Origin: Prevotella sp.
GTDB taxonomy: Bacteria > Bacteroidota > Bacteroidia > Bacteroidales > Bacteroidaceae
Length of the DNA stretch: 46,592 bases
Assembly: GCA_017548275.1 (NCBI GenBank)
Contig: JAFZAH010000007.1
Span: 1 to 46,592 of the forward strand
Reading direction: 5' to 3'
This document shows positions 20,701 through 46,550 of the stretch, piece by piece. The notes under the pieces are model-generated. The model was not told the DNA's origin, did no database searches, and saw only the letters and a list, made by a program, of their open reading frames with translations. The translations under genes and the position numbers were made by a program. The stretch's first letter is position 1, and every line of letters starts with the position of its first letter.

Positions 20701-20740
20701 GAGATAGAAGAAGATAGAAGAAGATAAAAGGAGATAAAAG
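20701..20740. repeat. AGATAGAAG/AGATAAAAG micro-repeat tract
   Basis: Four copies of a roughly 10-nt unit (GAGATAGAAG, AAGATAGAAG, AAGATAAAAG, GAGATAAAAG) fill the 96-bp gap between the polymerase and flippase genes. In transcript orientation the tract is a CTTTTATCTC-type pyrimidine-rich stretch. Confidence 0.85.
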
Positions 20741-20782
20741 ACGTTAGTATTATTCTGCTGCGACATCATTTCATACCCAATC

Positions 20783-21841: not shown

Positions 21842-21879
21842 AGATTCTCAGTTTGCATTCTGACAGCGTTTATAGACTG

Positions 21880-21911
21880 CAAAGATAAGACAAACCATTT
21901 GAATAAACAAA
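21880..21911 (-). promoter_or_regulatory. promoter of the flippase/glycosyltransferase operon
   Basis: On the minus strand, TTTG (21911-21908) and TATCTTTG (21887-21880) are separated by exactly 20 bp, a full match to the Bacteroidota -33/-7 arrangement. The predicted start of transcription near 21874 gives a leader of about 32 nt. The remaining gap to 22036 shows no clear consensus for the plus-strand gene. Confidence 0.78.
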
Positions 21912-22036
21912 TCTGCTTTCTATTTTTTTAGATTCCCGGTGACATGGGAGCACAGCCGTTGAAAAAAGCGACAGTTGACACAATAATCATCCGTGTTTTA
22001 GAGTTATTATATTGATATGATTGATTGTAACAAGAC

Positions 22037-26429: not shown

Positions 26430-26451
26430 CAATTAACTGTGCGATAGTAAA

Positions 26452-28573: not shown

Positions 28574-31500
28574 TCACTTCACCACCATTTTCTTGCCATT
28601 CACGATATACACGCCCTTTTGTGTGGGTTTCTTATCGAGTTTCTGACCGTCGAGGGTGTACCAAGATTGTGACTGTGAATCTGATGAGTCAATTGAGAAT
28701 TGAGTATCGTGAATGCCTGTGGTTTCCGATACAATGTTGATGTTCGTACCAGTGTTTGGCAACCTTGTCTTGACACCGTCGGGGTCAGTGGTCTTGGCGT
28801 TGAGAATGCTCAAATTGTACGTGCCCACTTGATAACCTGCGGGGATGTCAATGGTAATACGCGCCACCTCGCCCTCGTTGCCTGAGAAGGTGTACAATTT
28901 GCCCGTGTTGCGGTTTCCTCTCGTCGTAGCACACAGAATCTTCAACGTGCCATCGGCCTGCAGAGAAGAATTGAAGAAATCGGTTTTGCCCGCCGTGGTA
29001 CGGTCATCGCTCAGTTCAGCCATATTGAAATCATCTGTCGTGATGCCCTCGGGCAGTTGCAGAGCGAACTCAAAACCGCTTACCTTCACACTGTTCTTCA
29101 TTCTGACAGAAAGCACCTGCCGCGTGCCGGACAAGGCTGTCACGGGTTCCACATAAATGGCATTATCTAAAGCGTCGATATCTGTTTGGAGGTTCTCAGG
29201 TGCACGCTTCATGGGGGCGCCGGACGATGCGCCTCCGCCGTGAAGGATGATGTTGGCGATGCCTGTCAGGTCGGCGATGTCGATTTCGCCATCGGAACCG
29301 CCATTAACGCTGCCAGCCACATCGGCCAAGGGCGCGTGGAAACCGTCTTGCGTTTTGCCGAGGAGATAGTTGGCTAACAGCGTGAAGTCGGCCACATCCA
29401 CCTCATGATCCATATCCACGTCGCCTTTCAACACGCCAATGATATTAAACTGGTTCCACACATCAGCCGTCTGATAGGTGCTTACACTTCCATCCAACAC
29501 ATAGAGTGTGGCATTATAGTTTGAGAAATCGCTGCTGCCGATGGTTTGCGGCTGAGGATTGAAATTATAGATGCTCGCAAGGCGGGAACAACCATGGAAG
29601 GCGTCACTGCCAATGTTTGTCACTCCATCGTGGATAATCACGGTCGTCAGGCCACGGCAACCGCCGAACGCGCCATCACCGATGCTTGTCACGGTCGGGG
29701 GGATTGTCACACTCGTCAGACTGACACAGTTGGCAAAAGCGTCATCACTGACAGTGCTCACACCATCAGGAATGACAAATTCCGTGATTTCGATGCCTTC
29801 GTTGTCAATCAAGTGTACGGGTTTGTTGGCAACCGATTTAATCAAACCTACAACCATGTTACCGGGGAATGCTGACATATCAGAGACAGACACCTTCACG
29901 GTCAAATTGGAGCAACCGGAAAAAGCAGAAGAGCCGATACTCGTCACGCCATCGGGAATGGTCATGCTCATTAAGCCTGTGCAGTTCTCGAACGCATAAG
30001 CGCCGATGCCCGTTACACTTGTGGGGAGAATCACACTCGTCAGACTGGCACAACCATTAAACGAATAATCACCAAGGCTTGTCAAGCCATCGGAGAGGGT
30101 CACGTCTGTGAGATTGGTGCAACCCCTGAAAGCAGAATTGCCGATGCTCGTCACGCTCGAGGCGATGGTAACGCTTTTCAGCCCGGTGCAGAATTCGAAC
30201 GCATAAGAGCCGATGCCCGTCACGTTTCCTCCTATAATATAGTTCTCCACTTGCTTGCCAAAAATATTGTTCATATAATAACGCGACATGACCGCATTGC
30301 TATTCATTGTCACTGTAGTCAAGCCATTGCAACCCGAGAACGCATACGAGGCGATATTCGTCACGCTTGAGGGGATGGTGACACTTGACAAACCCGAGCA
30401 ACCGGAGAAAGCGTATGAGTTGATGCCCGTCACACCGTCAGGTATCACCAAGTCAGTGCATTCTGTGTTCTCATCACTATATAGATGATGGGCATAAACC
30501 AAAGGATTCGCATAATAATTCCCAAAACTGACACGGCTCCATGTGCCAACATCCGGCACAACAACTTTTGTCAGGCCGGTGCAACCTGAGAACGCATAAG
30601 TGCCGATGCTTGTCAAACTTGAAGGGAAGGTTACGCTCGTCAGACCGGCGCAATCCGAGAATGCATAAGTGCCGATGCGGGTCACACCGTCGGGAACGGT
30701 CACGCTGGTCAGACTGGAGCAACCGTTGAACGTATAATCACCTATACTTGTCACGCCGTCAGGGATAGTCACACCTGTCAGACCGGAGCAACCGTCGAAC
30801 GCATAAGCGCCGATGCCCGTCACACCGTCAGGAATGGTCACACTCGTCAAGTTGTTGCAACCTGAGAACGCATAAGCACCGATATTCGTCACTGTTTGAG
30901 GAATATTGACCTCCGTCATATTCTGACAATTCTCAAAAGCATGACCGTTTATCCCGGTGACCGTATAATTGACTCCGTTTATCGTGATTTGCTCCGTCAA
31001 CAAATATTCATCTAACGAATCATCATTAACACCAACCACCTCTGCCGTATGGCTGTCATTGTCAAGCGCATATATTACGGCATTATAAGTATTGACCTGT
31101 GTACCAATCTCAAACACCTTGTTATTGGGTCCTAACAAATCCTGGTAATAATCCTTCATTCCTTTCGGAACCCATATTTCCGTAGAAGCGGGAAACGCGT
31201 TACTGCCGATGCTCGTCACGCTCGCGGGGATGGTCACGCTCGTCAGACCCGTGCAACCATAGAAAGCGGAAGCGCCAATGCTTGTCACACCATCGGGAAT
31301 GGACACACTCGTCAGGCCGATGCAATTACAGAAAGCATTCGCACCGATGGACTCCACGCCATCAGGGATAACAAATTCTGTTATTTCATCGCCATCACTA
31401 TCAATCAACGTGACAGATTTACTCAGACGGTTTTTTATTTGCCCGATAATCTGGTTGTTGCAGAAAGCGGAGGGTTCAGTCACATACACTTTGACAGTGG

Positions 31501-31897
31501 AGACATTCCGGGTACCCTGAAAAGCATAACTGTCTATACTGGTGATTCCCTGCGGAAAAGTTATTGATTCCAGTGCCGCGAGATAACAAAAAGCCAAATA
31601 GCCAATTGTGGTAGCCTGAGATTGCGGATGAAATATGATTTCTTTCACCACATCGTGTGAACTATAAAAATTTTCAACTAAATCACCGTTTTCATCGGTT
31701 TCCGGATGATAGACCACCCCGAACACATTTTCATAATAGAGACACCAGTCACTGCCACCGGGACAAGCGTCATAATACTTTCCACTTATTTCAGTGAATG
31801 TTGCCGGAATGTTCACTACTTCCTCAACAGGGAGTGTCTCGGAAAAAACAGATGTGACAGACAATAAGGCGACTATCAATGATACAATTTTATTCAT
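28574..31897 (-). CDS. BspA-like leucine-rich repeat surface protein with dockerin- and cohesin-like segments
   Basis: The protein is 1107 aa from the ATG at 31897, giving signal peptide MNKIVSLIVALLSVTSVFS; 31918 is an alternative. A longer frame to 31996 begins upstream of the promoter and is rejected. About 30-790 contain over twenty 23-residue LRR_5 units (consensus LTSVTIPDGVTSIGxYAFxGC) in blocks separated by linkers. Two dockerin-type EF-hand segments follow (GDVDMDHEVDVADFTLLANY near 823, and GGSDGEIDIADLTGIANIIL near 865). A cohesin-like beta-sandwich lies at about 910-1050. A short C-terminal segment, WYTLDGQKL...GVYIVNGKKMVVK, resembles Bacteroidota C-terminal sorting-type tails. 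It is probably a secreted surface adhesin. The repeats are highly similar in DNA, so copy number may vary. Confidence 0.88.
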   Translation of the reverse strand: MNKIVSLIVALLSVTSVFSETLPVEEVVNIPATFTEISGKYYDACPGGSDWCLYYENVFGVVYHPETDENGDLVENFYSSHDVVKEIIFHPQSQATTIGYLAFCYLAALESITFPQGITSIDSYAFQGTRNVSTVKVYVTEPSAFCNNQIIGQIKNRLSKSVTLIDSDGDEITEFVIPDGVESIGANAFCNCIGLTSVSIPDGVTSIGASAFYGCTGLTSVTIPASVTSIGSNAFPASTEIWVPKGMKDYYQDLLGPNNKVFEIGTQVNTYNAVIYALDNDSHTAEVVGVNDDSLDEYLLTEQITINGVNYTVTGINGHAFENCQNMTEVNIPQTVTNIGAYAFSGCNNLTSVTIPDGVTGIGAYAFDGCSGLTGVTIPDGVTSIGDYTFNGCSSLTSVTVPDGVTRIGTYAFSDCAGLTSVTFPSSLTSIGTYAFSGCTGLTKVVVPDVGTWSRVSFGNYYANPLVYAHHLYSDENTECTDLVIPDGVTGINSYAFSGCSGLSSVTIPSSVTNIASYAFSGCNGLTTVTMNSNAVMSRYYMNNIFGKQVENYIIGGNVTGIGSYAFEFCTGLKSVTIASSVTSIGNSAFRGCTNLTDVTLSDGLTSLGDYSFNGCASLTSVILPTSVTGIGAYAFENCTGLMSMTIPDGVTSIGSSAFSGCSNLTVKVSVSDMSAFPGNMVVGLIKSVANKPVHLIDNEGIEITEFVIPDGVSTVSDDAFANCVSLTSVTIPPTVTSIGDGAFGGCRGLTTVIIHDGVTNIGSDAFHGCSRLASIYNFNPQPQTIGSSDFSNYNATLYVLDGSVSTYQTADVWNQFNIIGVLKGDVDMDHEVDVADFTLLANYLLGKTQDGFHAPLADVAGSVNGGSDGEIDIADLTGIANIILHGGGASSGAPMKRAPENLQTDIDALDNAIYVEPVTALSGTRQVLSVRMKNSVKVSGFEFALQLPEGITTDDFNMAELSDDRTTAGKTDFFNSSLQADGTLKILCATTRGNRNTGKLYTFSGNEGEVARITIDIPAGYQVGTYNLSILNAKTTDPDGVKTRLPNTGTNINIVSETTGIHDTQFSIDSSDSQSQSWYTLDGQKLDKKPTQKGVYIVNGKKMVVK

Positions 31898-31961
31898 AGG
31901 TTTAATCTTTATGTTCATGAACCTGTTGACTAAGATGGTCTTTTGTGTATTATTCAATGTG

Positions 31962-31993
31962 CAAAAATAACATCTGTTCAGCACATTACCAAA
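31962..31993 (-). promoter_or_regulatory. promoter of the BspA-like gene
   Basis: On the minus strand, TTTG (31993-31990) and TATTTTTG (31969-31962) are exactly 20 bp apart, a full consensus. The transcript would start near 31956, which rules out the 31996 start and leaves a leader of about 59 nt to the ATG at 31897. Confidence 0.8.
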
Positions 31994-32117
31994 CAAATAC
32001 AGTCTTTTTTACAAAAGTCGTAAGAGATTGACAGAGTAGAGCAGAGCATGACAGAATATGGTTTCGGCAACACGGATAAGACGGGAAGAAATGAGGCAAA
32101 TAATCCGTTACAATAAG

Positions 32118-34505: not shown

Positions 34506-35231
34506 ATGAAATTCATCCAAAGTTCTTATTTCCGCGCCGCTTTCGCCGCAGTAATTGGCATTCTGATACTCTGCAACCCGCTTGGTATGCTGAAAATCAC
34601 GTCAATAGCCATGGGTATCCTGTTTCTGCTCACCGGACTGTATTTCTGCTACAATTATTACCAGAAAAAGATTATGGAGACAGAGCAGAAATTCAAGGAG
34701 AAGGAGTCGGACACCGTCTCTGCAGAGAGCGAACAAACCAACGAGCCGAAGGACTACAAAGAGCGCGTCACCACCTTCTCTCTGCCGGTCGTAGGTATGG
34801 GCAGCACGATTCTGGGCCTCTGTCTGACATTGGCTCCGAGCGGATTCATCAGCCTGTTTATGTATGTGTTGGGCGGTATCATCATCCTCGGAGCGCTCAA
34901 CCAATTCTTCACACTCTACCAAGCCAACAAATATGCGCCCATAGCGACATACTACTGGGCGGTCCCCACCCTACTGTTATTGGCAGGTTTGTTTATCATC
35001 ATCAATCCGCTGACGGCGGTCAAGGCGCCCCTCATCATCGTGGCTATCAGTTTGATTGTCTATGCCGTATCGGAAGTGATGAACAGTATCTCCATCGAAC
35101 ATTGGGCAGAGCGCAGAAATGAGATGCGGCGCATGGAGCGCAGCGCACAAGCCCAGAAGGAAGAAACAAAAAAGATAGAGAAAGAAAAGCCCGGCGAATA
35201 CGTGAATTATATCGTGACGGATGAGGATTAA
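34506..35231 (+). CDS. DUF308/HdeD-like multi-pass membrane protein
   Basis: The 241-aa protein has about six TM segments in two similar halves (AAFAAVIGILILCNPLGML and ITSIAMGILFLLTGLYFCY; later LLLAGLFIIINPLTAVKAPL and IIVAISLIVYAVSEVM). The IxxNPL motif of each half is characteristic of HdeD/DUF308. The charged linker at about 60-85 and the basic Glu/Lys-rich tail are cytoplasmic. HdeD is linked to acid resistance in E. coli; in Bacteroidota the role is unknown. Confidence 0.82.
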   Translation: MKFIQSSYFRAAFAAVIGILILCNPLGMLKITSIAMGILFLLTGLYFCYNYYQKKIMETEQKFKEKESDTVSAESEQTNEPKDYKERVTTFSLPVVGMGSTILGLCLTLAPSGFISLFMYVLGGIIILGALNQFFTLYQANKYAPIATYYWAVPTLLLLAGLFIIINPLTAVKAPLIIVAISLIVYAVSEVMNSISIEHWAERRNEMRRMERSAQAQKEETKKIEKEKPGEYVNYIVTDED

Positions 35232-35274
35232 TGAGAGTGACAGGTGGTGATAGGTAGTTCCAGAAGGTTATAAA

Positions 35275-36537
35275 TTATTCTGGGTTTTTCTGGGCTTTTC
35301 TATGGAATGCCCATGCGGTGAGGAGGATGATGAAGGGCATGAAGGGGATGTGGAAACGAGTCTCGCCATGACCGAAGAACAAGAGGACCGCCGTACCCAC
35401 TAAAATAACACCGCCACAAAGCACCGCCACATCGAGGCGCTTGCTCTTGACACAACGGACAAGACCAATCACCGCACCGACAAGCAAGAGATAATAAAAC
35501 AACAGATTGACCACGGCGAGCCATTGCACCGCCGATAACCGCGGAAACGCTGTCCATAGCGTTTCCATGCTCAACTCTTGATACATCTGTTCATTTTTCT
35601 CTGGCAAGAAAGCGCATAGCGTTGTATTGTCAGACACATAGGTGCGTGCCAGTTTCTCGGGCATCTGCGCCAGATATTCATCCACATTATGACTGAGCCA
35701 GATGCCGAAATGCGACCGCCACACAGAGTCTTTTTGCAACACATCGTACTGACGTTCGGCAGGGATGACATTGGGGTCCCCATCCACAAAGAACGCACGG
35801 TCGGGTGCCGTATCGCTGTCATGATCCCATGAGTACTGCATAAGGGCCATCCACCCAGTGGCTGCCTGATAGAAAAACCGCCCAGTGCGCGCATAATTGA
35901 TGCCTCCGATGACACAAATCATCAGCACATATCCACCCACCAGCGAAGCGATACGCCGCCAACGCCGTTCTTGCCGCACGAAGTAGAAGACCATCAGCAC
36001 AACGACGAACACCAGCGCCATGGGACGGAACCAGTTGCCGGCAGCCAACAAAATGCCCGCCATGAGCGGGTGATTGCGCATGACGGCATAAAGAGCCGCC
36101 ATCGAGAAAAACATAAACGGTAATTCGCTTAGGAGAGAGGTCGCCTCACCGTAATTGGCCGGATAAAGCAGATAGATGACCAGTGCCACAAGAGCCATCT
36201 TCGCACCGGCCAGACGGTTTGCCACCAAATAGAACATCCATGCCGTTGCACCTTTCATCAGCGCATACAAGATGAGCAATGGCGTGACCGAGCCGAAGAG
36301 CCACAGCGACAATTGAGTCATATTGACTGCCCCGATATTCCACAGGAAAGCCAATTCGCCCATCTGCCCCGCCACAGGGTAAGGTCCGCTCGCCTCCGTT
36401 GACTGTTGCGCCAATGCGATATAGCCGTTGCAGTCGGGAAAAGGTGTAAATCCGAGCAACGGGATGAGCAACAGTTGTATGACGGTGAATGTCGCCACCA
36501 GGTATAACACGTGGCGACGGGAGGAAAACGGGCGCAT
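35275..36537 (-). CDS. multi-pass membrane protein, GT39/ArnT-like glycosyltransferase candidate
   Basis: The protein is 420 aa from the ATG at 36537; an in-frame TTG at 36552 overlaps the udk stop and is less likely. It has about 10-11 TM helices. The first periplasmic loop (GFTPFPDCNGYIALAQQS) has an acidic residue where GT-C enzymes carry catalytic Asp. YLLYPANYGEATSLLSELPF and AAGNWFRPMALVF are typical of dolichol/polyprenyl-phosphate-mannose type membrane glycosyltransferases. It could glycosylate lipid or protein with a polyprenyl-linked sugar. It lies 11 bp downstream of uridine kinase, so the two are probably co-transcribed. Confidence 0.65.
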   Translation of the reverse strand: MRPFSSRRHVLYLVATFTVIQLLLIPLLGFTPFPDCNGYIALAQQSTEASGPYPVAGQMGELAFLWNIGAVNMTQLSLWLFGSVTPLLILYALMKGATAWMFYLVANRLAGAKMALVALVIYLLYPANYGEATSLLSELPFMFFSMAALYAVMRNHPLMAGILLAAGNWFRPMALVFVVVLMVFYFVRQERRWRRIASLVGGYVLMICVIGGINYARTGRFFYQAATGWMALMQYSWDHDSDTAPDRAFFVDGDPNVIPAERQYDVLQKDSVWRSHFGIWLSHNVDEYLAQMPEKLARTYVSDNTTLCAFLPEKNEQMYQELSMETLWTAFPRLSAVQWLAVVNLLFYYLLLVGAVIGLVRCVKSKRLDVAVLCGGVILVGTAVLLFFGHGETRFHIPFMPFIILLTAWAFHRKAQKNPE

Positions 36538-36548
36538 GACGGAAAAGG

Positions 36549-37163
36549 TCAAGGCTTGGGCACCAGACCCTCGATATAATTACAGAGAATGCCTATACCC
36601 TTGAGGTTTTCGCCTCCTTGCGGTATGATGAGGTCGGCGAATTTTTTCGTCGGCTCGATAAACTGCTCGTGCATGGGTTTGAGCACCGACAAATAGCGGT
36701 TGAGCACCATATCGACGGTACGACCACGCTCGACCACATCGCGCTGGATGTTACGAATGAGCCGTTCGTCGCTGTCGGTATCGACATAGATTTTCAAATC
36801 CATCATCTCGCGCAGTTTGCGATTAATGAGCGCCATGATACCCTCGATGATGATGACGGGTTTAGGCTCGACGTGAACCGTCTCCTTCAATCGGTTAGAA
36901 AGGATGTAGGAATAGGTGGGCTGTTCGATGGCCTCGCCATTGCGCAACTGGTTGATTTGCTTGATGAGCAGTTTCCAGTCGAAAGCATCGGGATGGTCGA
37001 AATTGATTTGCCGCCGTTCCTCGTCGGTCATGTGCGTGGTGTCGTTGTAATACGAGTCGATAGGCACGACCGCCACGTAATGCGGCGGCAACGCCTCAAC
37101 GATTTTCCTTACTACAGTTGTTTTTCCGGAGCCTGTACCTCCGGCGATTCCGATAATGGTCAT
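36549..37163 (-). CDS. udk: uridine kinase
   Basis: The 204-aa protein has P-loop GIAGGTGSGKTT (residues 5-16). PIDSYYNDTTHM near 35 and NFDHPDAFDW near 54 are uridine-binding region motifs. YSYILSNRLKETV and VIIIEGIMAL follow, in the order of bacterial Udk. It phosphorylates uridine and cytidine in pyrimidine salvage in the cytoplasm. Length and motifs are normal. Together with the extracellular nuclease locus downstream it could make use of scavenged nucleosides, though udk is a housekeeping gene in most genomes. Confidence 0.95.
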   Translation of the reverse strand: MTIIGIAGGTGSGKTTVVRKIVEALPPHYVAVVPIDSYYNDTTHMTDEERRQINFDHPDAFDWKLLIKQINQLRNGEAIEQPTYSYILSNRLKETVHVEPKPVIIIEGIMALINRKLREMMDLKIYVDTDSDERLIRNIQRDVVERGRTVDMVLNRYLSVLKPMHEQFIEPTKKFADLIIPQGGENLKGIGILCNYIEGLVPKP

Positions 37164-37352
37164 ATTTGGTTGAAGGTTTAGGGTTTAGGGCTTAGTGTTC
37201 CGGCACTATTTCTTACCACTTGCATTTGGTATAAGTTTTTTTGCCGCGGCAAAGGGAGAAAACGTCACAGATTACCTTCCCATAAAAACCAACCTGTTAA
37301 TTGTGTATTATCAATTGTGAATTGTGAATTATTAATTGTGAATTGTGAATTA
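37164..37352. repeat. intergenic region with TTTAGGG and AATTGTGAATT micro-repeats
   Basis: Upstream of udk are GTTTAGGG/GTTTAGGG/CTTAG units (37177-37195). Further along, AATTGTGA-type units repeat about six times (37308-37365) and run into the last codons of the uracil-DNA glycosylase-like gene, encoding its final IIHN and stop. No gene or clear promoter was recognised in the rest. Confidence 0.75.
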
Positions 37353-37976
37353 TCAATTGTGAATTATTTGTCGATAGTACTCCGCTTTATTCTCCAGACG
37401 CATGGGATAAGCACGTGAAGAGGAAGGCATGCGATAGAAACGGAGCGTGCGGCCGTCGAAGGTGAAATCGACATAGGCGCCGTCACGCGGCGCGTTAATA
37501 CCGAAATGCGCAGCCAACAGCCCTGTGGCTTTCTCGCCCGTGGTGACGACAGTCTGCAACTGCGGCAATTGGCTGATAAGCGCAGACAGGTCGGTAGGTT
37601 CCACCACCTCCAAGTCCTTGTCAGAAGCGGTATTCTTCAGTCGTCTGACCGTCACAGCCGTATCGTAGAGGGCAATGCCCTGTTCCTGCAACATCTCAAT
37701 GATAGCCTCGCGCCGGAACGTCTTTTGCACCTCATCGACAAAGTGGTTTTTGTCGCCATAAAGACAGTGTCCAAAAATTCTCCACATGTCATTGATGTAG
37801 TTCGGGTAAAAGAAATTCATACACCAACGGTGACGGGCAGGTGGAAAACTGCCCAGCATCAGTATCTTGGCGCCATCAGGGAGAAACGGCTGCAGGGGAT
37901 GGTGTTCAGGAGCCCCCTCCCCATCCCTCACCGAAGGGAGGGCGGTGTTACCACTCTGTTTGAGTCGTTTATCCAC
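37353..37976 (-). CDS. uracil-DNA glycosylase-family protein
   Basis: The frame is 207 aa, beginning with GTG at 37976; no ATG precedes the core domain and a TGA lies two codons upstream. The core from about residue 27 reads LPDGAKILMLGSFPPARH, then MNFFYPNYINDMWRIFG and VVTTGEKATGLLAAHFG, matching the UDG superfamily members of Bacteroidota that excise uracil or deaminated bases. Residues about 9-24 (GNTALPSVRDGEGAPE) come from a C/G-rich intergenic repeat. The true start may be the GTG at 37976 or the GTG at 37928 inside the repeat. The last residues also lie in a micro-repeat. The role in DNA repair is inferred from family. Confidence 0.8.
   Translation of the reverse strand: MDKRLKQSGNTALPSVRDGEGAPEHHPLQPFLPDGAKILMLGSFPPARHRWCMNFFYPNYINDMWRIFGHCLYGDKNHFVDEVQKTFRREAIIEMLQEQGIALYDTAVTVRRLKNTASDKDLEVVEPTDLSALISQLPQLQTVVTTGEKATGLLAAHFGINAPRDGAYVDFTFDGRTLRFYRMPSSSRAYPMRLENKAEYYRQIIHN
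37909..37943. repeat. C/G-rich repeat overlapping a gene start
   Basis: GGAGCCCCCTCCCCATCCCT and the following CACCGAAGGGAGGGCGG belong to the same class as 24353-24383 and 25415-25449. It sits within the first 25 codons of the uracil-DNA glycosylase-like gene, in frame. Confidence 0.65.
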
Positions 37977-38020
37977 TGTCGTTCAGTCTCTTGATTTTAC
38001 TATTGGACGAGGGAAAGGCC

Positions 38021-39325
38021 TTACTCTTTCGGTTTGAGTCCCTGGTTATCGGGAGTGGTCATGATGTCGATGGCGGATTTTACGGTCTCGACCTTCTCGG
38101 GCGTCACAATAGCGGGAGCCAGTTCGGCATCCGGCGGTATGGAACCGACAGCCAGGGAGTCGATAGGCAGCACGCCATCTACGGGCAGAACCTCTGCCGC
38201 TCTCAACTGTTCGAGTCTGAGCGCCTCAGCAGCCCTTTCCTCTTCAGCCAAACGCTGCATATCAGCCCTCACGGCATCTCTTTCCTTCATCACATACAGC
38301 ACCACAGGCAAGTGGTCAGAATAGCCGTCGAGCCACACACCACCGGCATGAGAACGTTTGGGCTGGCCTTTATAGGAGCCCTCTTGCTGTATCAGATAAT
38401 CGCGACGGAAGATTTGCGCTTTCCAGTATTTCAGTTTGGAGAAATCTTTCTCTTCATTGAGATTGAGCAGGTTGGGCGTCATCACAATTTGGTCAAACAG
38501 GTTCCAGCGACCGTCATAGAACAATGTGCCGGTTCCGTTGTCGAGAATTTTCCACCAGGGGTTGTACATATCGCCAGGACCCACGTCTTTCATGTCGCGT
38601 TTAGCACCTAACTCACGTGACATGCTCTTGTCGTGCGGGTCATCATTCATATCACCCATGACAAAAACTTTGCAGTTGGGGTCATCGCGCAGGAGCGAGT
38701 CTTTCACCACACGCACCTGCCGGCCGCCTGACTCACGGTAGAACGACGTAGATGCACGTGAGGGCCAGTGGCAGACGATGACAGCGACATGCTCACCGGC
38801 GAGAGTACCGCTCACGGTAAGGAATCCACGTGTCTTATAAGTGCTGTCTTTCTCGAGTTCCTGCACATAAGGCACGAGTTTCATGTCACGAATCTTGAAC
38901 AGGGCGGGATTATACATCAGCGCGCAATCCACACCACGGCGGTCTTCGCCTTCGATGTGCGCAACCCTATAACCACGGGCCTTGAGTTCGGGCTGGTCGA
39001 TGAGTGCCTGCAGCGCGTTCATGTTCTCCACCTCAGAGAGTCCGATGATGGCACATCCCACGCTTTGCGGCAGCACGTCTGTGCCGAGGTCTGCCAGTGC
39101 GCGCGCCATGTTGTGCAACTTATGGGTATACTTCAGCGTGCCCCACTTATTGGTGCCGTCGGGCAGATACTCATAATCGTTTTTTCCCACATCGTGGACG
39201 GTATCAAACAAATTTTCCTGATTGTAGAAAGCCACACCGTAAACTTGATACTGTTTTTGTGCTTTCATGGCAGAAATGCCAGCAATTAGCATGAATGCCA
39301 TCAAAAAAAATCGATGTTTCATCAT
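38021..39325 (-). CDS. secreted endonuclease/exonuclease/phosphatase family protein
   Basis: The protein is 434 aa from the ATG at 39325 (or 39322), which gives signal peptide MKHRFFLMAFMLIAGISAMKA-Q; the longer frame is rejected. EEP fold motifs are all present: AFYNQENLFDT near 30, LSEVENMNAL (metal-binding Glu) near 95, VCHWPSR near 185, VMGDMNDDPHD near 215 and YSDHLPVVLY near 310. The last 90 residues form an Ala/Glu-rich extension outside the catalytic domain. It would cleave phosphodiesters outside the cytoplasm. It is divergent from the TonB-dependent receptor gene, sharing a 184-bp intergenic region. Confidence 0.9.
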   Translation of the reverse strand: MMKHRFFLMAFMLIAGISAMKAQKQYQVYGVAFYNQENLFDTVHDVGKNDYEYLPDGTNKWGTLKYTHKLHNMARALADLGTDVLPQSVGCAIIGLSEVENMNALQALIDQPELKARGYRVAHIEGEDRRGVDCALMYNPALFKIRDMKLVPYVQELEKDSTYKTRGFLTVSGTLAGEHVAVIVCHWPSRASTSFYRESGGRQVRVVKDSLLRDDPNCKVFVMGDMNDDPHDKSMSRELGAKRDMKDVGPGDMYNPWWKILDNGTGTLFYDGRWNLFDQIVMTPNLLNLNEEKDFSKLKYWKAQIFRRDYLIQQEGSYKGQPKRSHAGGVWLDGYSDHLPVVLYVMKERDAVRADMQRLAEEERAAEALRLEQLRAAEVLPVDGVLPIDSLAVGSIPPDAELAPAIVTPEKVETVKSAIDIMTTPDNQGLKPKE

Positions 39326-39460
39326 ATTATAAGGTATTATTAAGTTCAATGATTCGTTAGTAAAGACTTCACTTTGCAAATTTCGGTTTTTTTTTCGAGA
39401 AAAACTCATTTTTATGGAAAAAATTTGTATGAAAGATTTTAATTTTTCAAAATAATTTTG

Positions 39461-39468
39461 TTACTTTG
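39461..39468 (+). promoter_or_regulatory. putative -7 element of the TonB-dependent receptor operon
   Basis: TTACTTTG (one mismatch to TAnnTTTG) lies 41 bp before the ATG, in the divergent region shared with the EEP gene. On the minus strand a weaker GAAATTTG (39383-39376) could serve the EEP gene. Confidence 0.45.
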
Positions 39469-39509
39469 CAACGTAATGACATGAAAACATCAACATCATT
39501 TATCATAAC

Positions 39510-42119
39510 ATGATCAAAAAAACGCTGAAATTAGCAGTGATAGCCCTATGCTGTCCCACATGGATGCTGGCTCAAGGTGAAATACCCTCGGGTCTCATCA
39601 ATGATGAGGACTCCACGGGAGCCATCATCACCTTTGATGATGCTGCATTTACTTTCTCAGAGACACAGTTGGGTGAGGATGAGGACATGACGCAAGCCGT
39701 GACCATCATGAACTCCAACAGCAATGTCTATGCAAAGCAGGTGGGATATTTGTTCTCGCCCGTCCGTTTTCGTTATCGTGCCTTCAACCAGAAGTACAAC
39801 GACATCTACATCAACGGCGCACCCATGAATGACATGGAGTCAGGACAGTTCCGCTACACCATCGTGGGCGGTATCAACAACCTGACCCGCTACTACGAAG
39901 CCTCACTCCCCTTCGAGGACAACAGTTTCTCGATGCCGGGCATGGGCGGAAGCAACAACTACAACTTCCGCGCCGCCAACGTTTCAACCGGTCATAAAGC
40001 GACAGCGAGCATCGCCAACCGTAACTACACGGCACGTGCCATGTACACCTACGGCAGCGGCCTGAGCCGAAGCGGTTGGGCTTGGGCAGCCTCTATCGGT
40101 TACCGTTGGGCAAAGAGAGGTTATGTGGAAGGTACGTTCTACAACTCACTCTCCTACTACCTCGGTATCCAGAAGTTGTGGGGAGACCACTCTATCTCGC
40201 TCTCCACATGGGGTAACCCCACCGAGCGCGCTTCGCAAGGTCCTGTGACCGACGAGATGTACTGGATAGCCAACAACAACCAGTACAACCCCTATTGGGG
40301 CTACCAGAACGGCAAGGTACGCAACTCGCGCGTCATCAACGATTTCCAACCCACCGCTCTGTTGACGTGGGACTGGAACATCAATGACAAGATGAAACTC
40401 ACCACCTCTCTGTTGGGCCGTTACAGCATGTATAAGAGTACCAAACTCAACTACAACAACGCCGACAACCCGCTGCCGACATATTGGAAGAACATGCCGA
40501 GCAGTTACTGGAACGTGTGGCCCGATGAGGACGGGACGTTCAATGACCCGACCAACCGTACCGACCAAGGTTTGAGAGACTGGAACATCGCTTATAACTA
40601 CCTGAAAGCATCAAAAGAGAACCGTCAGGTGAACTGGGACCGCCTTTATTGGGCCAACCAGCAAGCCAACGCCAGCGGTACCGACGCTATGTACTATGTG
40701 CAGGCCAAACATAATGACAATCTGAACTACACTCTATCATCAACGTTGAAGAAAGTGCTTTCTAACAACACGACTTGGAACGTCGGTTTCTGGGCTGCCA
40801 CCAACAAAGGCATGCACTACGAGACGATGGAAGACCTGCTCGGTGCGAACGTGCTACACAACATCAACTCCTACGCGTTGGGCAACTACTCTGCAGACAA
40901 CCCCTACGTGCAGTACGACCTGAACCACCCCAATCAGGAAATCAAGGAAGGCGACGTGTTCAATTACAGTTATGACTTGAAAGTGCAGAAGGCGACATTG
41001 TGGACGAACTACACAACCACCTTCGGCCGTTTCCGCGCCTTCGTGGCAGGTAAAATCGGCGGCACAGCCATGAACCGCTATGGCCACATGCGCAATGGTA
41101 TGTTTGCCGAGAACTCCTTCGGCCGCAGCGGCACGGCGAAATTCCTCGACGGCGGTGTGAAGGGTAGCATCTCTGCCAGTCTGGGCAAAGGACATCTGGT
41201 CCGCCTTGGTGCAGGATATCAGTTGAACGCCCCGATGGCACAGACCGCCTTCGTCTCTCCTGAGACCAACAACGACTTCGTCGGCAACCTGAAAAACGAG
41301 AAGGTGTTCAGCAGCGAGTTTGACTATCATTACCAGAATTCTTGGCTCCGCGCGAGCGTCAACGCCTATTTCACCAAGATGAGCGATGTGACGGAATGGC
41401 AAAACTTCTATTTCGACGACATCAACTCCTTCTCATATGTGTCGTTGACCAACATCGAGAAAGCCTATTACGGCGTGGAGGTAGGATTGGATTTCCGCAT
41501 CACCTCTGAATTAAACATCATCGCCATCGGTACTTGGGGCGAGGGCAAGAACACGAACAATTCGAATGTCCGCTACTTGAACTCCACGAAAAGGACATAT
41601 CACGACGATATCGTATATAATAAGAACATGCACGAGGCAGGCACACCGCTGTCGGCATACAGCCTGACGTTCGACTACAGTCACAAGGGCTGGTACTACA
41701 CCCTGAACTGCAACTACTACGACCGAATCTACCTCTCCTACTCTCCTTCATATCGTTACAAGACTACGCTCGAAACAATGGGTTTGCACCATCAAGGCGT
41801 AGATGAAAACGGAAATGAGTTCGACTATTATGAGGTTCCCTCTCAGGCTAAGGGCAAGGGCGGATTCATGGTTGACGCCAGCATCGGTAAGTCGATTCGC
41901 CTGAAGCGCGGCAAGACCCTCAGCATCAACCTGATGATTACCAACCTGCTGAACAACACCCGTGTCTGCACGGGCGGATTTGAGCAGAGTCGCAGCGACT
42001 ACACCGTGAAGGATGACGGTTCAATCAACAGTGAACGCGCATACAAGTTCTCACGCAATCCCTACAAGTTCTATGCATACGGCATCAACGGCATGCTTAA
42101 TTTCACATTCAGATTCTAA
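39510..42119 (+). CDS. TonB-dependent outer-membrane receptor (no N-terminal carboxypeptidase-like domain)
   Basis: The 869-aa protein has a signal peptide (1-21, ending WMLA-Q). A short acidic stretch leads directly into a plug domain (about 55-170) with VGYLFSPVRFRYRAFNQKYN, IYINGAPMND and GGINNLTRYYEAS. A long Tyr/Asn/Gly-rich beta-barrel ends with the C-terminal aromatic strand GMLNFTFRF. It lacks the CarboxypepD_reg domain usual in SusC proteins and no SusD follows. The next two genes are OB-fold lipoproteins, 13 bp and then 67 bp apart, and nucleases lie on both sides. It probably imports nuclease products or other phosphorylated compounds; the substrate is inference. Confidence 0.88.
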   Translation: MIKKTLKLAVIALCCPTWMLAQGEIPSGLINDEDSTGAIITFDDAAFTFSETQLGEDEDMTQAVTIMNSNSNVYAKQVGYLFSPVRFRYRAFNQKYNDIYINGAPMNDMESGQFRYTIVGGINNLTRYYEASLPFEDNSFSMPGMGGSNNYNFRAANVSTGHKATASIANRNYTARAMYTYGSGLSRSGWAWAASIGYRWAKRGYVEGTFYNSLSYYLGIQKLWGDHSISLSTWGNPTERASQGPVTDEMYWIANNNQYNPYWGYQNGKVRNSRVINDFQPTALLTWDWNINDKMKLTTSLLGRYSMYKSTKLNYNNADNPLPTYWKNMPSSYWNVWPDEDGTFNDPTNRTDQGLRDWNIAYNYLKASKENRQVNWDRLYWANQQANASGTDAMYYVQAKHNDNLNYTLSSTLKKVLSNNTTWNVGFWAATNKGMHYETMEDLLGANVLHNINSYALGNYSADNPYVQYDLNHPNQEIKEGDVFNYSYDLKVQKATLWTNYTTTFGRFRAFVAGKIGGTAMNRYGHMRNGMFAENSFGRSGTAKFLDGGVKGSISASLGKGHLVRLGAGYQLNAPMAQTAFVSPETNNDFVGNLKNEKVFSSEFDYHYQNSWLRASVNAYFTKMSDVTEWQNFYFDDINSFSYVSLTNIEKAYYGVEVGLDFRITSELNIIAIGTWGEGKNTNNSNVRYLNSTKRTYHDDIVYNKNMHEAGTPLSAYSLTFDYSHKGWYYTLNCNYYDRIYLSYSPSYRYKTTLETMGLHHQGVDENGNEFDYYEVPSQAKGKGGFMVDASIGKSIRLKRGKTLSINLMITNLLNNTRVCTGGFEQSRSDYTVKDDGSINSERAYKFSRNPYKFYAYGINGMLNFTFRF

Positions 42120-42132
42120 AAGACCACACGAT

Positions 42133-43011
42133 ATGAAATACTTCAATTATATGATAATAGCAGTCGTCTGCACGTTTATCGCATCGTGTATGGCCGACAC
42201 TGACAGTTTCGACAAACCGAAACTCGACGAACCTCCTTTCGGTAACAATGACATAGAATGCACCAATCTGGTTACCATAAAAGAATTGAAGGAGGCGTAC
42301 AAGACTCCGATGACCACCGATTACCGCAATGGTGACTCGTTCGAGGAAGTGAAAGAGGCAACCCAAATCCGTGGTTATGTCACCGCCAACGACATCTCTG
42401 GAAACATTTACAATGAGGTGGCCATTCAAGACGAGACCGGAGCCATCCTGATTGAGATACAGCAAGGCGGACTTTTCGGTTATCTGCCCGTAGGCACCGA
42501 AATCATTGTGGAACTCAAAGGCTTGTACGTAGGCAACTACCGCATGCAGCCGTTGGTTGGAATGCCGTCCAAGGTGTCACAGGGTGTCAATCAAGGAAAA
42601 GACCAGTTGGGTAAAATCTCGCGAATGCTGTGGCAAGACCATTTCCGCATCACAGGCAACAAGAAGATTATTGAGCCGGAGGTGTTTAACAATCAGTGGG
42701 ATGACTTTGAAGACGGAGGTAAACTGGGTAAGATAGAGCAAGTGACATTCTCCAAGGGTTCATATTACAATGGTGTCACATCGGTACCATTGCCCTTCGA
42801 TGAGAACGCACAATTTGCCAATCCCGATTTAAGTGCCTCCGTATCATGGTACTTCAACGAATTTCCGACTACCGTGATGCTCTATAACAGCAACTATTCC
42901 GACTTTGCCGCCGCTTTGCTGCCGCACAGCAAGGTGTCTATCACAGGTGTGGTGAAACGCTATAACAGTAATTGGGAAATAATAATGAGAGATTACAACG
43001 ATATTCAATAA
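42133..43011 (+). CDS. DUF5689-type OB-fold lipoprotein
   Basis: The protein is 292 aa from the ATG at 42133. The longer frame from 42013 overlaps the receptor gene and lacks a signal. The lipoprotein signal is MKYFNYMIIAVVCTFIASC, with the lipobox Cys near 19. Residues 40-170 contain TQIRGYVTANDISGNIYNE, VAIQDETGAILIEI and GTEIIVELKGLYVGNYRMQ, the pattern of DUF5689, an OB-like fold. The C-terminal part has a second beta domain ending SNWEIIMRDYNDIQ. It is expected on the outer membrane as partner of the receptor. Binding of nucleic acid is plausible for OB folds but not shown. Confidence 0.82.
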   Translation: MKYFNYMIIAVVCTFIASCMADTDSFDKPKLDEPPFGNNDIECTNLVTIKELKEAYKTPMTTDYRNGDSFEEVKEATQIRGYVTANDISGNIYNEVAIQDETGAILIEIQQGGLFGYLPVGTEIIVELKGLYVGNYRMQPLVGMPSKVSQGVNQGKDQLGKISRMLWQDHFRITGNKKIIEPEVFNNQWDDFEDGGKLGKIEQVTFSKGSYYNGVTSVPLPFDENAQFANPDLSASVSWYFNEFPTTVMLYNSNYSDFAAALLPHSKVSITGVVKRYNSNWEIIMRDYNDIQ

Positions 43012-43078
43012 ACCCAATGAATAATAGTACATGGTACTGACAATCATCAATTTAAGAAAACAAAAAAACAAATATAAT

Positions 43079-44881
43079 ATGAAGAAAATAATCTATTTGG
43101 TGATGATGCTTGCCATCGCGGCATTCACCAGTTGTGAAGATGTGCCTGCACCCTATGACGACCCGAACAACCACCCGAAGGAGGAGGATCCCGTAGATGA
43201 GAACCTCATTCTTGAAGAGACCTTTGGCAAGGGTTTCGGTTCATTCGAAGTTATAACGCTGGAAGGTACGCCTTGGACCATTAACTACGGCACAGCCACG
43301 GGTACGGGCTATGACAGCAAGACCAAGGTCAACACAGCCTCGAAGAGTTACCTTGTTTCGGGCGACATCGACCTGACAGGCGTAGACCAGGCTTACATCG
43401 AGTTTGAGTACATCTTCCGCTATAAGAAAAATGACGGAGAAAACAAGGTGCTCATCACGGACGATTACAAAGGCGACCCGACAACCACCGACTGGACTGA
43501 TATTACAGGAACACTGACCGAAGGCTCCGATTGGGACACATTCTACAAGTACGTTCATATTATAGAGCAACAATTCTTAGGGAAGAACGGCATCCGCATC
43601 GCCCTTTACTATAGCGGCACGGAAAAAGGTTCTCGCACATGGGAGGTGAAGAACTTGAAAATCCGCAAGGGTGAACCAGAAGAAGAGCCCGGACCGGAGT
43701 TACCAACCGACCTGAACGGCGACGGAACAGCCGCCAATCCCTATGATGTGGCATCGGCACTGAAGGTGATTCAGGCTGTAGGAACCACTGGAACAGAAAA
43801 TGACGTATATGTGAAAGGAACGGTGACTGAGGTAACAGAAATCAGCACCCAAAACGGCAATGCAACCTTCCTGATTGGTGACCCGGGCTCTACCAGCACT
43901 ATGACCATCTATCGCGCTAAAGGTCTGGAGAAAGCCGATATCACCACCAACGACTACGTAAAGGCCGGTGACGAGGTCATCTGCTGTGGCAAACTGGTCA
44001 ATTTCAAGGGCAACACCCCGGAAATGACGCAAGGCGGTTATATCTACTCGCTCAATGGCAAGACCTCAGAGGGCAGCGGCGTGATTGCCGACCCAACGGG
44101 CAACGGAACATTGGAAGACCCGTATAATGTGGCAGCAGCAATCAATTTCATCAACTCTTTGAGTGCAGATGTACAGTCCGATGTGATTTATGTGAAAGGT
44201 AAAATCTCGAAGATTAAAGAAGTTAACACCAATGCTGATTACGGCAATGCCACTTATTGGATTTCCGATGACGGAACAGTTACCAACCAATTGCAAGTCT
44301 ACCGCGGTTATTACCTCAAGAACGAGAAATTCACCGATGCCAATGCCATCAAGGTAGGTGATGAGGTAATCGTCTGCGGCAAGGTGGTTAACTTCAAAGG
44401 TAATACACCAGAGTTTGTGGACAAGGCAAGTTACATCTACTCCCTTAACGGCGATAATGGCGAGCCGAAGATGGCGGGCAGTCATGACGCACCTCTCACC
44501 ATTGCTCAGGCTCTTGCTTTCGGTGATGCCGAACAGGCATGGGTGAAAGGATACATCGTAGGTGTAATCGATGCCCAAAATGTGGGTCACTTCAGTTATA
44601 ACGATTCTGAGATGGAGAACAGTGCCCTTCCATTCCTGATGTCAGGCGTACAAATCCAAAACGTTTATTCTGTAGAAGAATGCCTGGTGGTTCAGACCAC
44701 TCGCGGCTCTGACATCCGCCGCAATGTGCATCCTGCCGCACAGACACTCGGATGCGAAGTACTCATCTATGGTTCCTTGCAAGATTACGGCAGCGGATTG
44801 CGTGCTCTGAAGAACACTACTTACGCTGAAATCATCTCGCCCACAGGCGAAACCGTATCTTACGGAGCAATGCCGGAGTAA
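43079..44881 (+). CDS. lipoprotein with choice-of-anchor-like domain and three OB-fold-like repeats
   Basis: The protein is 600 aa from the ATG at 43079, with lipoprotein signal MKKIIYLVMMLAIAAFTSC. About 40-195 is a jelly-roll domain (LEETFGKGFGSFEVITL, YLVSGDIDLTG, GSRTWEVKNLKIRKG) of the choice-of-anchor J type. Two tandem OB-like repeats start near 213 (GDGTAANPYDVASAL) and 340 (GNGTLEDPYNVAAAI), sharing GDEVIxCGKxVNFKGNTPE, so they arose by duplication. A third, more divergent module starts near 468 (SHDAPLTIAQALAFG). It is a surface lipoprotein in the receptor operon, probably a ligand-capture subunit. The domain names are from memory of motif patterns. Confidence 0.82.
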   Translation: MKKIIYLVMMLAIAAFTSCEDVPAPYDDPNNHPKEEDPVDENLILEETFGKGFGSFEVITLEGTPWTINYGTATGTGYDSKTKVNTASKSYLVSGDIDLTGVDQAYIEFEYIFRYKKNDGENKVLITDDYKGDPTTTDWTDITGTLTEGSDWDTFYKYVHIIEQQFLGKNGIRIALYYSGTEKGSRTWEVKNLKIRKGEPEEEPGPELPTDLNGDGTAANPYDVASALKVIQAVGTTGTENDVYVKGTVTEVTEISTQNGNATFLIGDPGSTSTMTIYRAKGLEKADITTNDYVKAGDEVICCGKLVNFKGNTPEMTQGGYIYSLNGKTSEGSGVIADPTGNGTLEDPYNVAAAINFINSLSADVQSDVIYVKGKISKIKEVNTNADYGNATYWISDDGTVTNQLQVYRGYYLKNEKFTDANAIKVGDEVIVCGKVVNFKGNTPEFVDKASYIYSLNGDNGEPKMAGSHDAPLTIAQALAFGDAEQAWVKGYIVGVIDAQNVGHFSYNDSEMENSALPFLMSGVQIQNVYSVEECLVVQTTRGSDIRRNVHPAAQTLGCEVLIYGSLQDYGSGLRALKNTTYAEIISPTGETVSYGAMPE

Positions 44882-44892
44882 TTTTTCTTGAG

Positions 44893-44990
44893 AAGTCAGA
44901 GAAGTTAAGTAGTTAAAGAAGTTAAGCCGTATGTTCACGAGCAGGGATTCGCTATTCCCTATTGACGTGGAAACGGCTTAACTTCTTTTA
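44893..44990 (+). terminator. micro-repeat tract leading into a long terminator hairpin
   Basis: GTTAAG units (44893-44925) merge into a hairpin. GAAGTTAAGCCGT (44918-44930) pairs perfectly with ACGGCTTAACTTC (44973-44985), with inner CACG/CGTG and AGGGA/TCCCT pairs, followed by TTTTAG. It ends the receptor operon. The left arm is similar to the tract after the Wzz gene (14206-14230). Confidence 0.85.
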
Positions 44991-45026
44991 GTTCATTAAC
45001 TACCAGAAAAAATATTTGCCAAATAA

Positions 45027-45058
45027 TTTGCGTGGTCTGGAAAAAGTTCGTACCTTTG
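45027..45058 (+). promoter_or_regulatory. rpmE2: promoter of the L31 gene
   Basis: TTTG (45027-45030) and TACCTTTG (45051-45058) are exactly 20 bp apart, a full Bacteroidota consensus. Transcription would start near 45064, giving a leader of about 46 nt. Confidence 0.82.
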
Positions 45059-45109
45059 CAGCCCAAATGCAATTATTGCAAATAATTAACTATAACAATA
45101 ACAATAAAA

Positions 45110-45361
45110 ATGAAAAAAGGTATTCATCCCGAAAACTATCGCCCCGTCGTATTCAGAGATATGTCCAACGGCGATATGTTCCTTACAAAATCTACATGCA
45201 AGACTACAGATACAGTAGAGTTTGAAGGCGAAACTTACCCTGTGGTAAAAGTTGAAATCTCGAGCACCTCTCACCCGTTCTACACTGGTAAGAGCAAGTT
45301 GGTTGACACCGCCGGACGTGTTGACCGCTTCATGAACCGCTACGGTAAGATTAAGAAGTAA
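45110..45361 (+). CDS. rpmE2: ribosomal protein L31 type B
   Basis: The 83-aa protein reads [20 protein letters not shown] and ends [15 protein letters not shown]. The motifs [11 protein letters not shown] and [10 protein letters not shown] are diagnostic of L31. It lacks the CxxC zinc pair of type A, having only a single Cys at KSTCKTTD, so it is the type B, zinc-independent form. It is a component of the large ribosomal subunit at the intersubunit bridge. It is monocistronic with its own promoter and terminator, inserted between the receptor operon and the nuclease gene. Confidence 0.96.
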
Positions 45362-45421
45362 AGCCTCTCCCGTACCCTGACAGGGACTCTCAATGAGGCG
45401 GGATGATTTTACAGCATAATT

Positions 45422-45471
45422 AGAGTGCACCCTCTGCGTAGTTGCATATGCGCAAGGGTGCACTCTTTTTT
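45422..45471 (+). terminator. intrinsic terminator of the L31 gene
   Basis: AGAGTGCACCCT (45422-45433) pairs perfectly with AGGGTGCACTCT (45455-45466), a 12-bp stem. The inner TGCG/CGCA can pair as well, and a run of six T follows. A fragment of the C/G-rich repeat (CCCCCAGCCCCCTCCGG) follows at 45479-45493. Confidence 0.92.
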
Positions 45472-45556
45472 AGTTCTCCCCCAGCCCCCTCCGGACAGTC
45501 TGTTTGAGATTTCAACAATTTTTATCGATTATATTCATTGAATTAAAAAAAAATTG

Positions 45557-45564
45557 TATATTTG
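45557..45564 (+). promoter_or_regulatory. -7 element of the NUC1 nuclease gene
   Basis: TATATTTG is an exact TAnnTTTG match, 86 bp before the ATG. The leader contains a small CCCT-GAAA-AGGGG hairpin (45582-45594) and two AAACAAGAAAC repeats (45622-45646). Confidence 0.6.
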
Positions 45565-45650
45565 CAATCGATAGATGATAACCCTGAAAAGGGGTGTGTA
45601 AAGACACTATCCAAAAGCACTAAACAAGAAACACTAAAACAAGAAACCTC

Positions 45651-46550
45651 ATGGCAAAAAACTTCAAATGGGCTGTACTGAGCCTTTTGGCAGCCCTCAC
45701 CCTCACTGCCTGCGGCGGTGATGATGATGACGATGGCGGCGGCAAGAGCAACCCCGAAACGCCCAAGACGAAAAACGTCAACGCCAACATACTGACGAAG
45801 AAAGAATACGGACGTCTGGAGTTTCCGAAACTCAAAGGCGGAACAAGTATGGTTATCATCCATTCCACACCTGAATTTGGCTTAAACTATAGTCTGGAAT
45901 GGGACACATCGAAAAAGAGCCAGCGTTGGTCGTGCTTCGAATGGTATAACAGCAATAGTGGAGGTAGCGCCAGCCGTTACTATGGCGACCCGCAATACCC
46001 CTCCGACCCTGACCTGCCTTCTTCAGCCGGTTGGACCGACTACAATGATCCGTATAGAGGCAGCGGTTATGACCATGGGCATATAGTGGCATCCGCCGAC
46101 CGTCTGTGCTCAAGCGAAATGAATTACCAGACCTTTTTCCTGACCAACATGCAACCGCAGAAGAACAAATTCAACTCCGGTCTTTGGGCAAAGATGGAGA
46201 CGCAGGTGCGGAACTGGAACAAATCATCGTTCCGCGACACGCTCTATGTCTGTAAAGGAGGCACCATCGACAAGCCTGAACAGATACTTACCACCACAGG
46301 CCGCGGGCTGCTAGTGCCCAAATATTTCTTTATGGCGGTGCTATGCAAGAACTCTCAGGGATATAAAGCCATGGCGTTTTGGGTGGAGCATCTCAACGAG
46401 GACCGTTCTACTGATAACCTGAAAGACTATATCATCAGCATTGATGATTTAGAAGAGCGCACCGGCATTGATTTCTTCTGCAATCTGCCCGACGAGGTAG
46501 AGGATAAGGTGGAAGCCCAAATACTCCCGAGTGCTTGGGGATTTAAGTAG
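45651..46550 (+). CDS. surface lipoprotein DNA/RNA non-specific endonuclease (NUC1 family)
   Basis: The 299-aa protein has a lipoprotein signal ending LTLTAC (Cys21). It is followed at once by GGDDDDDGGG, an acidic stretch like the lipoprotein export signals that send Bacteroidota lipoproteins to the cell surface. The nuclease core has YDHGHIVASADR, the DxGH motif with general base His144, and FFLTNMQPQKNKFN with the metal-binding Asn near 166. These define the beta-beta-alpha-metal NUC1 fold. It should cut DNA and RNA at the surface or outside the cell. Its position 1.1 kb after the receptor operon supports a nucleic-acid acquisition role. The TAG stop lies in a micro-repeat. Confidence 0.93.
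   Translation: MAKNFKWAVLSLLAALTLTACGGDDDDDGGGKSNPETPKTKNVNANILTKKEYGRLEFPKLKGGTSMVIIHSTPEFGLNYSLEWDTSKKSQRWSCFEWYNSNSGGSASRYYGDPQYPSDPDLPSSAGWTDYNDPYRGSGYDHGHIVASADRLCSSEMNYQTFFLTNMQPQKNKFNSGLWAKMETQVRNWNKSSFRDTLYVCKGGTIDKPEQILTTTGRGLLVPKYFFMAVLCKNSQGYKAMAFWVEHLNEDRSTDNLKDYIISIDDLEERTGIDFFCNLPDEVEDKVEAQILPSAWGFK

Follow-up and report, generated by a model that had tools for sequence, protein, structure and literature searches.

Here, we analysed a stretch of 46,592 nucleotides from Prevotella sp. (contig JAFZAH010000007.1, hereafter the window), which carries close to its end a gene cluster built around a TonB-dependent-receptor-like protein of 869 amino acids (39510-42119, plus strand). A gap of only 13 bases separates the receptor gene from the gene of a DUF5689 lipoprotein (42133-43011, plus), which is followed by the gene of a 601-amino-acid lipoprotein with OB-fold repeats (43079-44881, plus). 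Upstream and on the other strand, a gene for a secreted EEP-family nuclease/phosphatase-type protein (38021-39325, minus) diverges from the receptor gene across an intergenic region of 184 bases (39326-39509), while an Endonuclease_NS (NUC1) lipoprotein gene (45651-46550, plus) lies downstream, beyond the gene for a type B ribosomal protein L31 (45110-45361, plus). All genes of the locus are open at these coordinates, as judged from the list of open reading frames and from profile scans. Within the intergenic region, TTACTTTGC (39461-39469) resembles the -7 element of Bacteroidota, the consensus of which we take to be TAnnTTTG, and is a putative element of this kind. We argue below that the cluster is likely to encode the step of natural transformation in which DNA is brought through the outer membrane, as a Prevotella-type variant of the RS04910-RS04915-RS04920 locus of Riemerella anatipestifer.

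A first-pass annotation, made from the sequence alone, had placed a secreted EEP gene divergent from the receptor and a NUC1 lipoprotein gene after L31, and the profile scans bear out both (PF19580, E=6.5e-90; PF01223, E=1.5e-40). Residues E101, D228, N230 and S339-D340-H341 of the EEP protein, to which we presume a catalytic role, are invariant in 14 aligned sequences. Its start was set by eye at 39325, where the translation opens with a signal-peptide-like MMKHRFFLMAF; the first possible start in the list of open reading frames is 39409. The C-terminal tail of ~85 residues (38021-38280, minus) occurs in none of the 13 aligned relatives. The NUC1 protein is related to the solved nucleases 1zm8 (E=2.8e-19) and 2o3b, both of which we take to be Anabaena NucA, to 1g8t, presumably the Serratia nuclease, and to EXOG. 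His144, Asn166 and Glu183 are invariant in 23 aligned sequences (alignment A7, with 18 of 48 named nucleases and 4 others); the conserved histidine lies in DHGH in the window, and in DRGH in the same-genus locus L130 and others. The lipobox cysteine, Cys21, is invariant in the same alignment and is followed by an acid run (CGGDDDDDG), a kind of sequence that serves Bacteroidota as a signal for export to the surface.

Which process would bring a receptor, lipoproteins and nucleases together? A precedent comes from a transposon screen for natural transformation in R. anatipestifer (Huang et al. 2021, PMC8459023). Two genes of the screen were unlike known transformation proteins, and the strand-degrading enzyme was left unidentified. 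RA0C_RS04920 was described as a protein with DUF5689 and DUF5017, and RA0C_RS04915 as a CarboxypepD_reg protein of predicted outer-membrane location, with RS04910 named as the gene upstream of RS04915. Unmarked deletion of either RS04915 or RS04920 lowered transformation from 5.4e-5 to below detection (limit ~4.2e-10), and the authors offered a speculative model that assigns DNA binding to RS04920 and passage of the DNA across the outer membrane to RS04915. Homologues of RS04915 were reported solely in Flavobacteriaceae (PMC8459023); within the open-licence literature searched, we found RS04915 named in this paper only. Furthermore, a tonBA mutant of Riemerella transformed less well although it had no iron defect (PMC8383284), a phenotype that fits a TonB-driven receptor.

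For a comparison at the level of the genes, we used a genome (G697) recognised as R. anatipestifer-like by its exact match to the comEC primer of PMC8383284, a match found in 2/320 family genomes. In its locus L105, open reading frames of at least 100 amino acids are arranged as recA-comEC-EEP-receptor-DUF5689, and their count fits the tags RS04870, RS04895, RS04910, RS04915 and RS04920, which run in steps of five; ComEC was confirmed by PF03772, and recA and the other neighbours were named by eye. The best match of the window receptor in this genome is the L105 receptor, with 255 bits over residues 56-869 and 75 bits at the next place. In the reverse direction, the L105 receptor has the window receptor as its sole match in the window's own genome (251 bits). 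The neighbours also match their Riemerella counterparts (EEP, phmmer 6.3e-53; DUF5689, 3e-13). By this reciprocal best match, the window receptor is the orthologue of RA0C_RS04915, and the EEP gene stands in the place of RA0C_RS04910.

The window receptor has no Pfam or NCBIfam match of its own at E<=0.1, and an N-terminal CarboxypepD_reg domain was not detectable in the Pfam scan. When 17 receptor relatives were scanned singly, the window protein (0 matches) among them, CarboxypepD_reg was found in 10-11/17, Plug in 3/17 and the barrel in 1/17. Because of these matches the window receptor is, by way of its relatives, classed as a probable remote TonB-receptor relative. The label of TonB-dependent receptor given in the first-pass annotation is based on the domains of relatives and not on any family match of the protein itself. 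CarboxypepD_reg varies among the relatives and was hence not taken as defining. The few solved chains with a sequence match cover the N-terminal region of the receptor family alone.

The two lipoproteins are informative in combination. The first matches DUF5689 strongly (PF18942, E=4.6e-55), and its Cys19, assigned to a lipobox by eye, is invariant in 41/41 aligned sequences (A6, 40 of 59 fetched). In relatives with two domains it aligns to the N-terminal one (hhalign P=100), and it is the counterpart of the N-terminal part of RA0C_RS04920. Against the narrower M949_1556 model it reaches 78.9 bits, under the curated cut-off of 475. An OB fold had also been proposed for this protein; a match to PF01336 (E=0.0018) falls under the family cut-off and profile comparison gives no relation to the OB repeats of its neighbour (P=1.5), such that the proposal keeps weak support. 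The second lipoprotein has several family matches (PF01336, E=6.3e-08 in 2 stretches; PF13742, E=1.7e-06; DUF6359, E=1.5e-10), and its Cys19 is invariant in 45/45 aligned sequences (A5, 44 of 68 fetched). It consists of an N-terminal domain (~40-208), two OB repeats (~225-340 and ~350-465) and a DUF6359 module. The repeats are near-identical by profile (hhalign P=100, 41% identity), whereas no sequence relation between the DUF6359 module and the repeats was detectable (P=0.07). This composition corrects the reading of three OB-like modules initially given for the lipoprotein.

This N-terminal domain links the second lipoprotein to Riemerella. It matches the C-terminal domain of two-domain proteins of the RA0C_RS04920 type over 152 columns (P=97.7, E=1.8e-12), while mismatched domain pairings gave P=0.07-5.7 in the same profile comparison; the L105 protein has a choice-of-anchor-J domain (NF038128) as its C-terminal part. 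Among the 45 aligned OB lipoproteins, 10, the window included, fill at least 40% of the columns of the N-terminal domain, and the remaining ones seem to begin with the OB repeats. The profile comparison suggests that the domains united in RS04920 are divided between two lipoproteins in the window, the second of which also carries the OB repeats and DUF6359.

Is this gene arrangement common outside the window? A scan of named genomes returned 592 stretches in all, among which the matches listed comprise 80 loci, nearly all from Prevotella, Prevotellaceae, Bacteroidaceae or split-off genera (e.g. Hoylesella timonensis, Prevotella denticola, P. amnii, P. micans, Segatella albensis and Hallella seregens). 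One locus of the Prevotella type, L159, sits on a contig titled Eggerthellaceae bacterium UBA5906 and is probably misbinned. In these listed loci, the EEP gene lies upstream on the other strand in 70/78 testable cases, DUF5689 follows the receptor in 77/79, the OB lipoprotein is present in 70/72 and NUC1 is encoded no more than 6.5 kb downstream in 48/66; loci with short flanks were left uncounted (2/80 for EEP, 1 for DUF5689, 8 for the OB protein and 14 for NUC1). These counts place the arrangement beyond chance, and we rejected a chance neighbourhood since the gene order is kept across the loci examined.

Further sets of loci agree. EEP, receptor and DUF5689 genes are contiguous in 8/8 further loci; in 7 of them EEP is located upstream of the receptor, and in G351 it comes after DUF5689. 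Among 25 fetched loci with a strong DUF5689 match (E<=1e-30), the receptor is adjacent in 24/25 (miss: L063) and EEP is beside the receptor in 20/25 (misses: L051, L063, L065, L066 and, at a contig end, L067). Weak DUF5689 matches, which were left out of the counts, mostly occur in other settings, namely long multi-DUF5689 proteins, pairs of a receptor and a 500-amino-acid protein, and a small protein family. In the window's taxonomic order, full-length receptors (>=894 bits) occur in at least 150 of 392 genomes, counted as distinct genomes with the window's included; at E<=1e-40 receptor matches extend to 262/392, paralogues included. The neighbours were checked in 18 of these loci, hand-picked from the matches of >=894 bits, and DUF5689 lies beside the receptor in 18/18 and EEP on its other side in 16/18 (misses: L261 and L265). 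For the receptor alignment (A4) we took the window and 53 of 78 receptors that had passed a length filter, and the rows of alignments A1 to A3 were hand-picked.

The two nucleases accompany the receptor in the examined genomes of the window's own family. The first-pass annotation had proposed nucleic-acid acquisition by a receptor working with lipoproteins other than SusD, and had tied this proposal to the co-occurrence of both nucleases with the receptor; indeed, both lie near the receptor in 7/7 family genomes examined (the window, G394, G1033, G1078, G351, G230 and G238), which supports the proposal. G394, a genome from the window's genus, has the same order as the window, with a divergent EEP gene followed by receptor, DUF5689, OB protein and NUC1. 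In G1033 and G1078, EEP is divergent and NUC1 downstream. G230 and G238 carry NUC1, EEP, receptor and DUF5689 all on the same strand, and G351 has NUC1, a 638-amino-acid protein, receptor, DUF5689 and EEP on one strand. This 638-amino-acid protein (L107:13527-15443, minus) is lipoprotein-like and unassigned to a family.

Not every gene at the locus appears to belong to the system. L31 is a frequent neighbour of Prevotella-type loci (44/66 testable among the listed named loci), and we judged it to be outside the system. In G394, the OB lipoprotein and nuclease genes are just 105 bases apart; the limit for open reading frames there (90 amino acids) exceeds the length of L31, and its absence rests on the 105-base gap. 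On the other side, a uridine kinase gene and a UDG-like gene, whose product distantly resembles DNA-deoxyinosine glycosylase (TIGR04274, 44.6 bits with a cut-off of 80), adjoin the cluster (36549-37976, minus). They are found in 39/80 and 31/80 listed named loci, respectively, and had no match in the set of relatives' loci searched; we did not use them as support for the system.

The DNA-import reading is based on the finding that relatives of two Riemerella transformation genes sit in one cluster with two nucleases. The comparisons establish orthology, gene order, domain content and conserved residues; we infer the DNA binding, the order of steps, the roles of the nucleases, the TonB dependence and the competence of the window's organism. 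In the proposed mechanism, which adds to the speculative model of PMC8459023, the DUF5689 and OB-array lipoproteins would act at the cell surface, capturing DNA and positioning it on the receptor. The NUC1 lipoprotein would cut the captured DNA and thereby create ends. TonB would then drive the DNA through the receptor, and the soluble EEP enzyme may process the incoming DNA in the periplasm, before the triple-HhH protein, ComEC, the ComF-like protein, DprA and RecA would take it onward. The window's own genome (87% complete, 56 contigs) carries ComEC, DprA, a ComF-like protein and a triple-HhH protein. The latter has 305 amino acids, with three HHH_3 matches and an N-terminal stretch of hydrophobic residues, and it matches (E=5.9e-23) a 447-amino-acid Riemerella protein, also with three HHH_3 matches, which by its domains we infer to be RS02645. 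The ComF-like match stays under the TIGR00201 cut-off in 6/6 genomes searched, Riemerella included.

Several points weigh against this reading. The receptors of the window and Riemerella share 27-28% identity, and the N-terminal domain is lost in the window. Table 2 of PMC8459023 does not list RS04910 among the deletion mutants, and the same paper reports that Flavobacterium johnsoniae has homologues, yet was not transformable in the conditions tried. Other roles exist or have been reported, because the DUF5689 protein of L105 is a member of the M949_1556 family (599 bits), which a paper title ties to antigenicity and pathogenicity (reference in PMC12566107). Outside the window's family, NUC1 was found in 0/29 loci of one set and 2/16 of another, namely in G901 (NUC1, EEP, receptor and DUF5689 on one strand) and G873 (NUC1 on the other strand); NUC1 looks like an addition, and EEP like part of the core. 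The presence of the downstream machinery discriminates little, since 14 control genomes contain the same families (ComEC in 10, DprA in 11, ComF in 14, HHH_3 in 11). DUF1343 (PF07075, NamZ), the family that includes the essential Riemerella protein RS09020, gave no match in the window's genome or in G394 (99% complete, one contig), and was found in G351, G230, G238 and G697. Finally, the open-licence PMC papers searched yielded no experiment and no paper on the locus in Prevotella, which is no proof of absence.

Could the cluster serve nutrition instead? The receptor would then import pieces of DNA or RNA made by the two nucleases as a source of nucleosides or phosphate, as the first-pass annotation had suggested by analogy with glycan loci. 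Two secreted nuclease-type enzymes near the receptor agree with such a role, as does the uridine kinase gene, which occurs in the window and 39/80 listed named loci, and the OB modules would suit RNA as well as DNA. However, the kinase is without a match in the relatives' loci searched, and removal of phosphate lowers transformation of Riemerella, which is if anything contrary to phosphate scavenging. Since Riemerella cannot be transformed without the orthologous receptor or DUF5689 lipoprotein (PMC8459023), the nutritional account is not the best-supported one, and we regard it as unlikely, although it is the foremost rival. Both roles could coexist in one system. The glycan analogy itself is limited to the layout: in SusCD systems, too, a TonB-receptor-like protein is served by lipoproteins and clustered with hydrolases, but the hydrolases of the window are nuclease-type. 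The ten proteins scanned at 34506-46550 include no SusD match, in agreement with the first-pass annotation, and no glycan enzyme, and we rejected a SusCD-type glycan system for these two reasons.

Alternatively, the receptor might import a different ligand, such as a peptide, a cofactor or an iron complex, with the transformation defect in Riemerella being indirect. In Riemerella, mutation of tonBB acts on transformation by way of iron, and the title-level tie of M949_1556 to antigenicity and pathogenicity (via PMC12566107) would agree with such a function. On the other hand, unmarked deletions led to complete loss of transformation down to the limit of ~4.2e-10 (PMC8459023), the locus couples nuclease genes to the receptor and has acquired OB modules, and we therefore consider another ligand improbable. 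Most improbable of all is a surface nuclease cluster that destroys extracellular DNA of biofilms or host nets next to an unrelated receptor: NUC1 and EEP are secreted nuclease-type proteins and NUC1 is missing in 18/66 testable listed named loci, but many loci without NUC1 still hold the receptor together with DUF5689 and EEP.

How does the proposed import system compare with known ones? The window and the Riemerella locus share the reciprocal best-matching receptor with a DUF5689 lipoprotein next to it and a divergent EEP gene, and both genomes encode an HhH protein, ComEC, DprA and a ComF-like protein. They differ in that the window receptor lacks CarboxypepD_reg, the RS04920 domains lie on two lipoproteins, OB repeats, DUF6359 and NUC1 are added, DUF1343/NamZ was not found, and the ComEC gene of the window's organism is elsewhere in the genome. 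Surface nucleases that serve competence are EndA of Streptococcus pneumoniae, like NUC1 a beta-beta-alpha-metal nuclease, and NucA of Bacillus. As in these, a surface nuclease would serve transformation in the window, but these Gram-positive bacteria have no outer membrane. The type IV pilus/PilQ machinery performs the same step, transfer of DNA across the outer membrane, by pilus retraction, whereas for the window we propose a TonB drive. No part homologous to type IV pilus/PilQ components was found among the proteins scanned in the cluster; the genome was not searched for pilus genes.

The remainder of the window contains other recognisable clusters and genes. A xylan-type glycan cluster at 174-5942 (minus) encodes a GH43 protein with a ricin-type lectin domain, a GH43 protein with CBM6 and a GH10 protein with an esterase, followed by a tmRNA gene (6324-6719, minus; tag GNNQYALAA). 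A surface polysaccharide cluster (10388-24192) comprises an SLBB/Poly_export protein, Wzz, glycosyltransferases, Polysacc_synt, EpsG and an acyltransferase. At 24390-26432 (minus), an FGE-sulfatase-type domain is fused to a protein kinase domain, and a BspA-type leucine-rich-repeat protein of 1140 amino acids is encoded at 28574-31996 (minus).

We see about an even chance for a broader proposal, in which double-stranded DNA enters Bacteroidia by way of a dedicated TonB-driven receptor and not a pilus, Prevotella and relatives hold surface and soluble nucleases together with an OB-fold capture array in the same cluster, and many Prevotella may be naturally transformable. The unit known from Riemerella is here traced beyond Flavobacteriaceae to Prevotella-type bacteria and, by its full-length receptor, to no fewer than 150 of the 392 genomes of the window's order. 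The two attached nucleases are candidates for the strand-degrading step left unidentified in Riemerella, and the cluster provides a short list of genes with which natural competence can be tested in bacteria abundant in gut and rumen.

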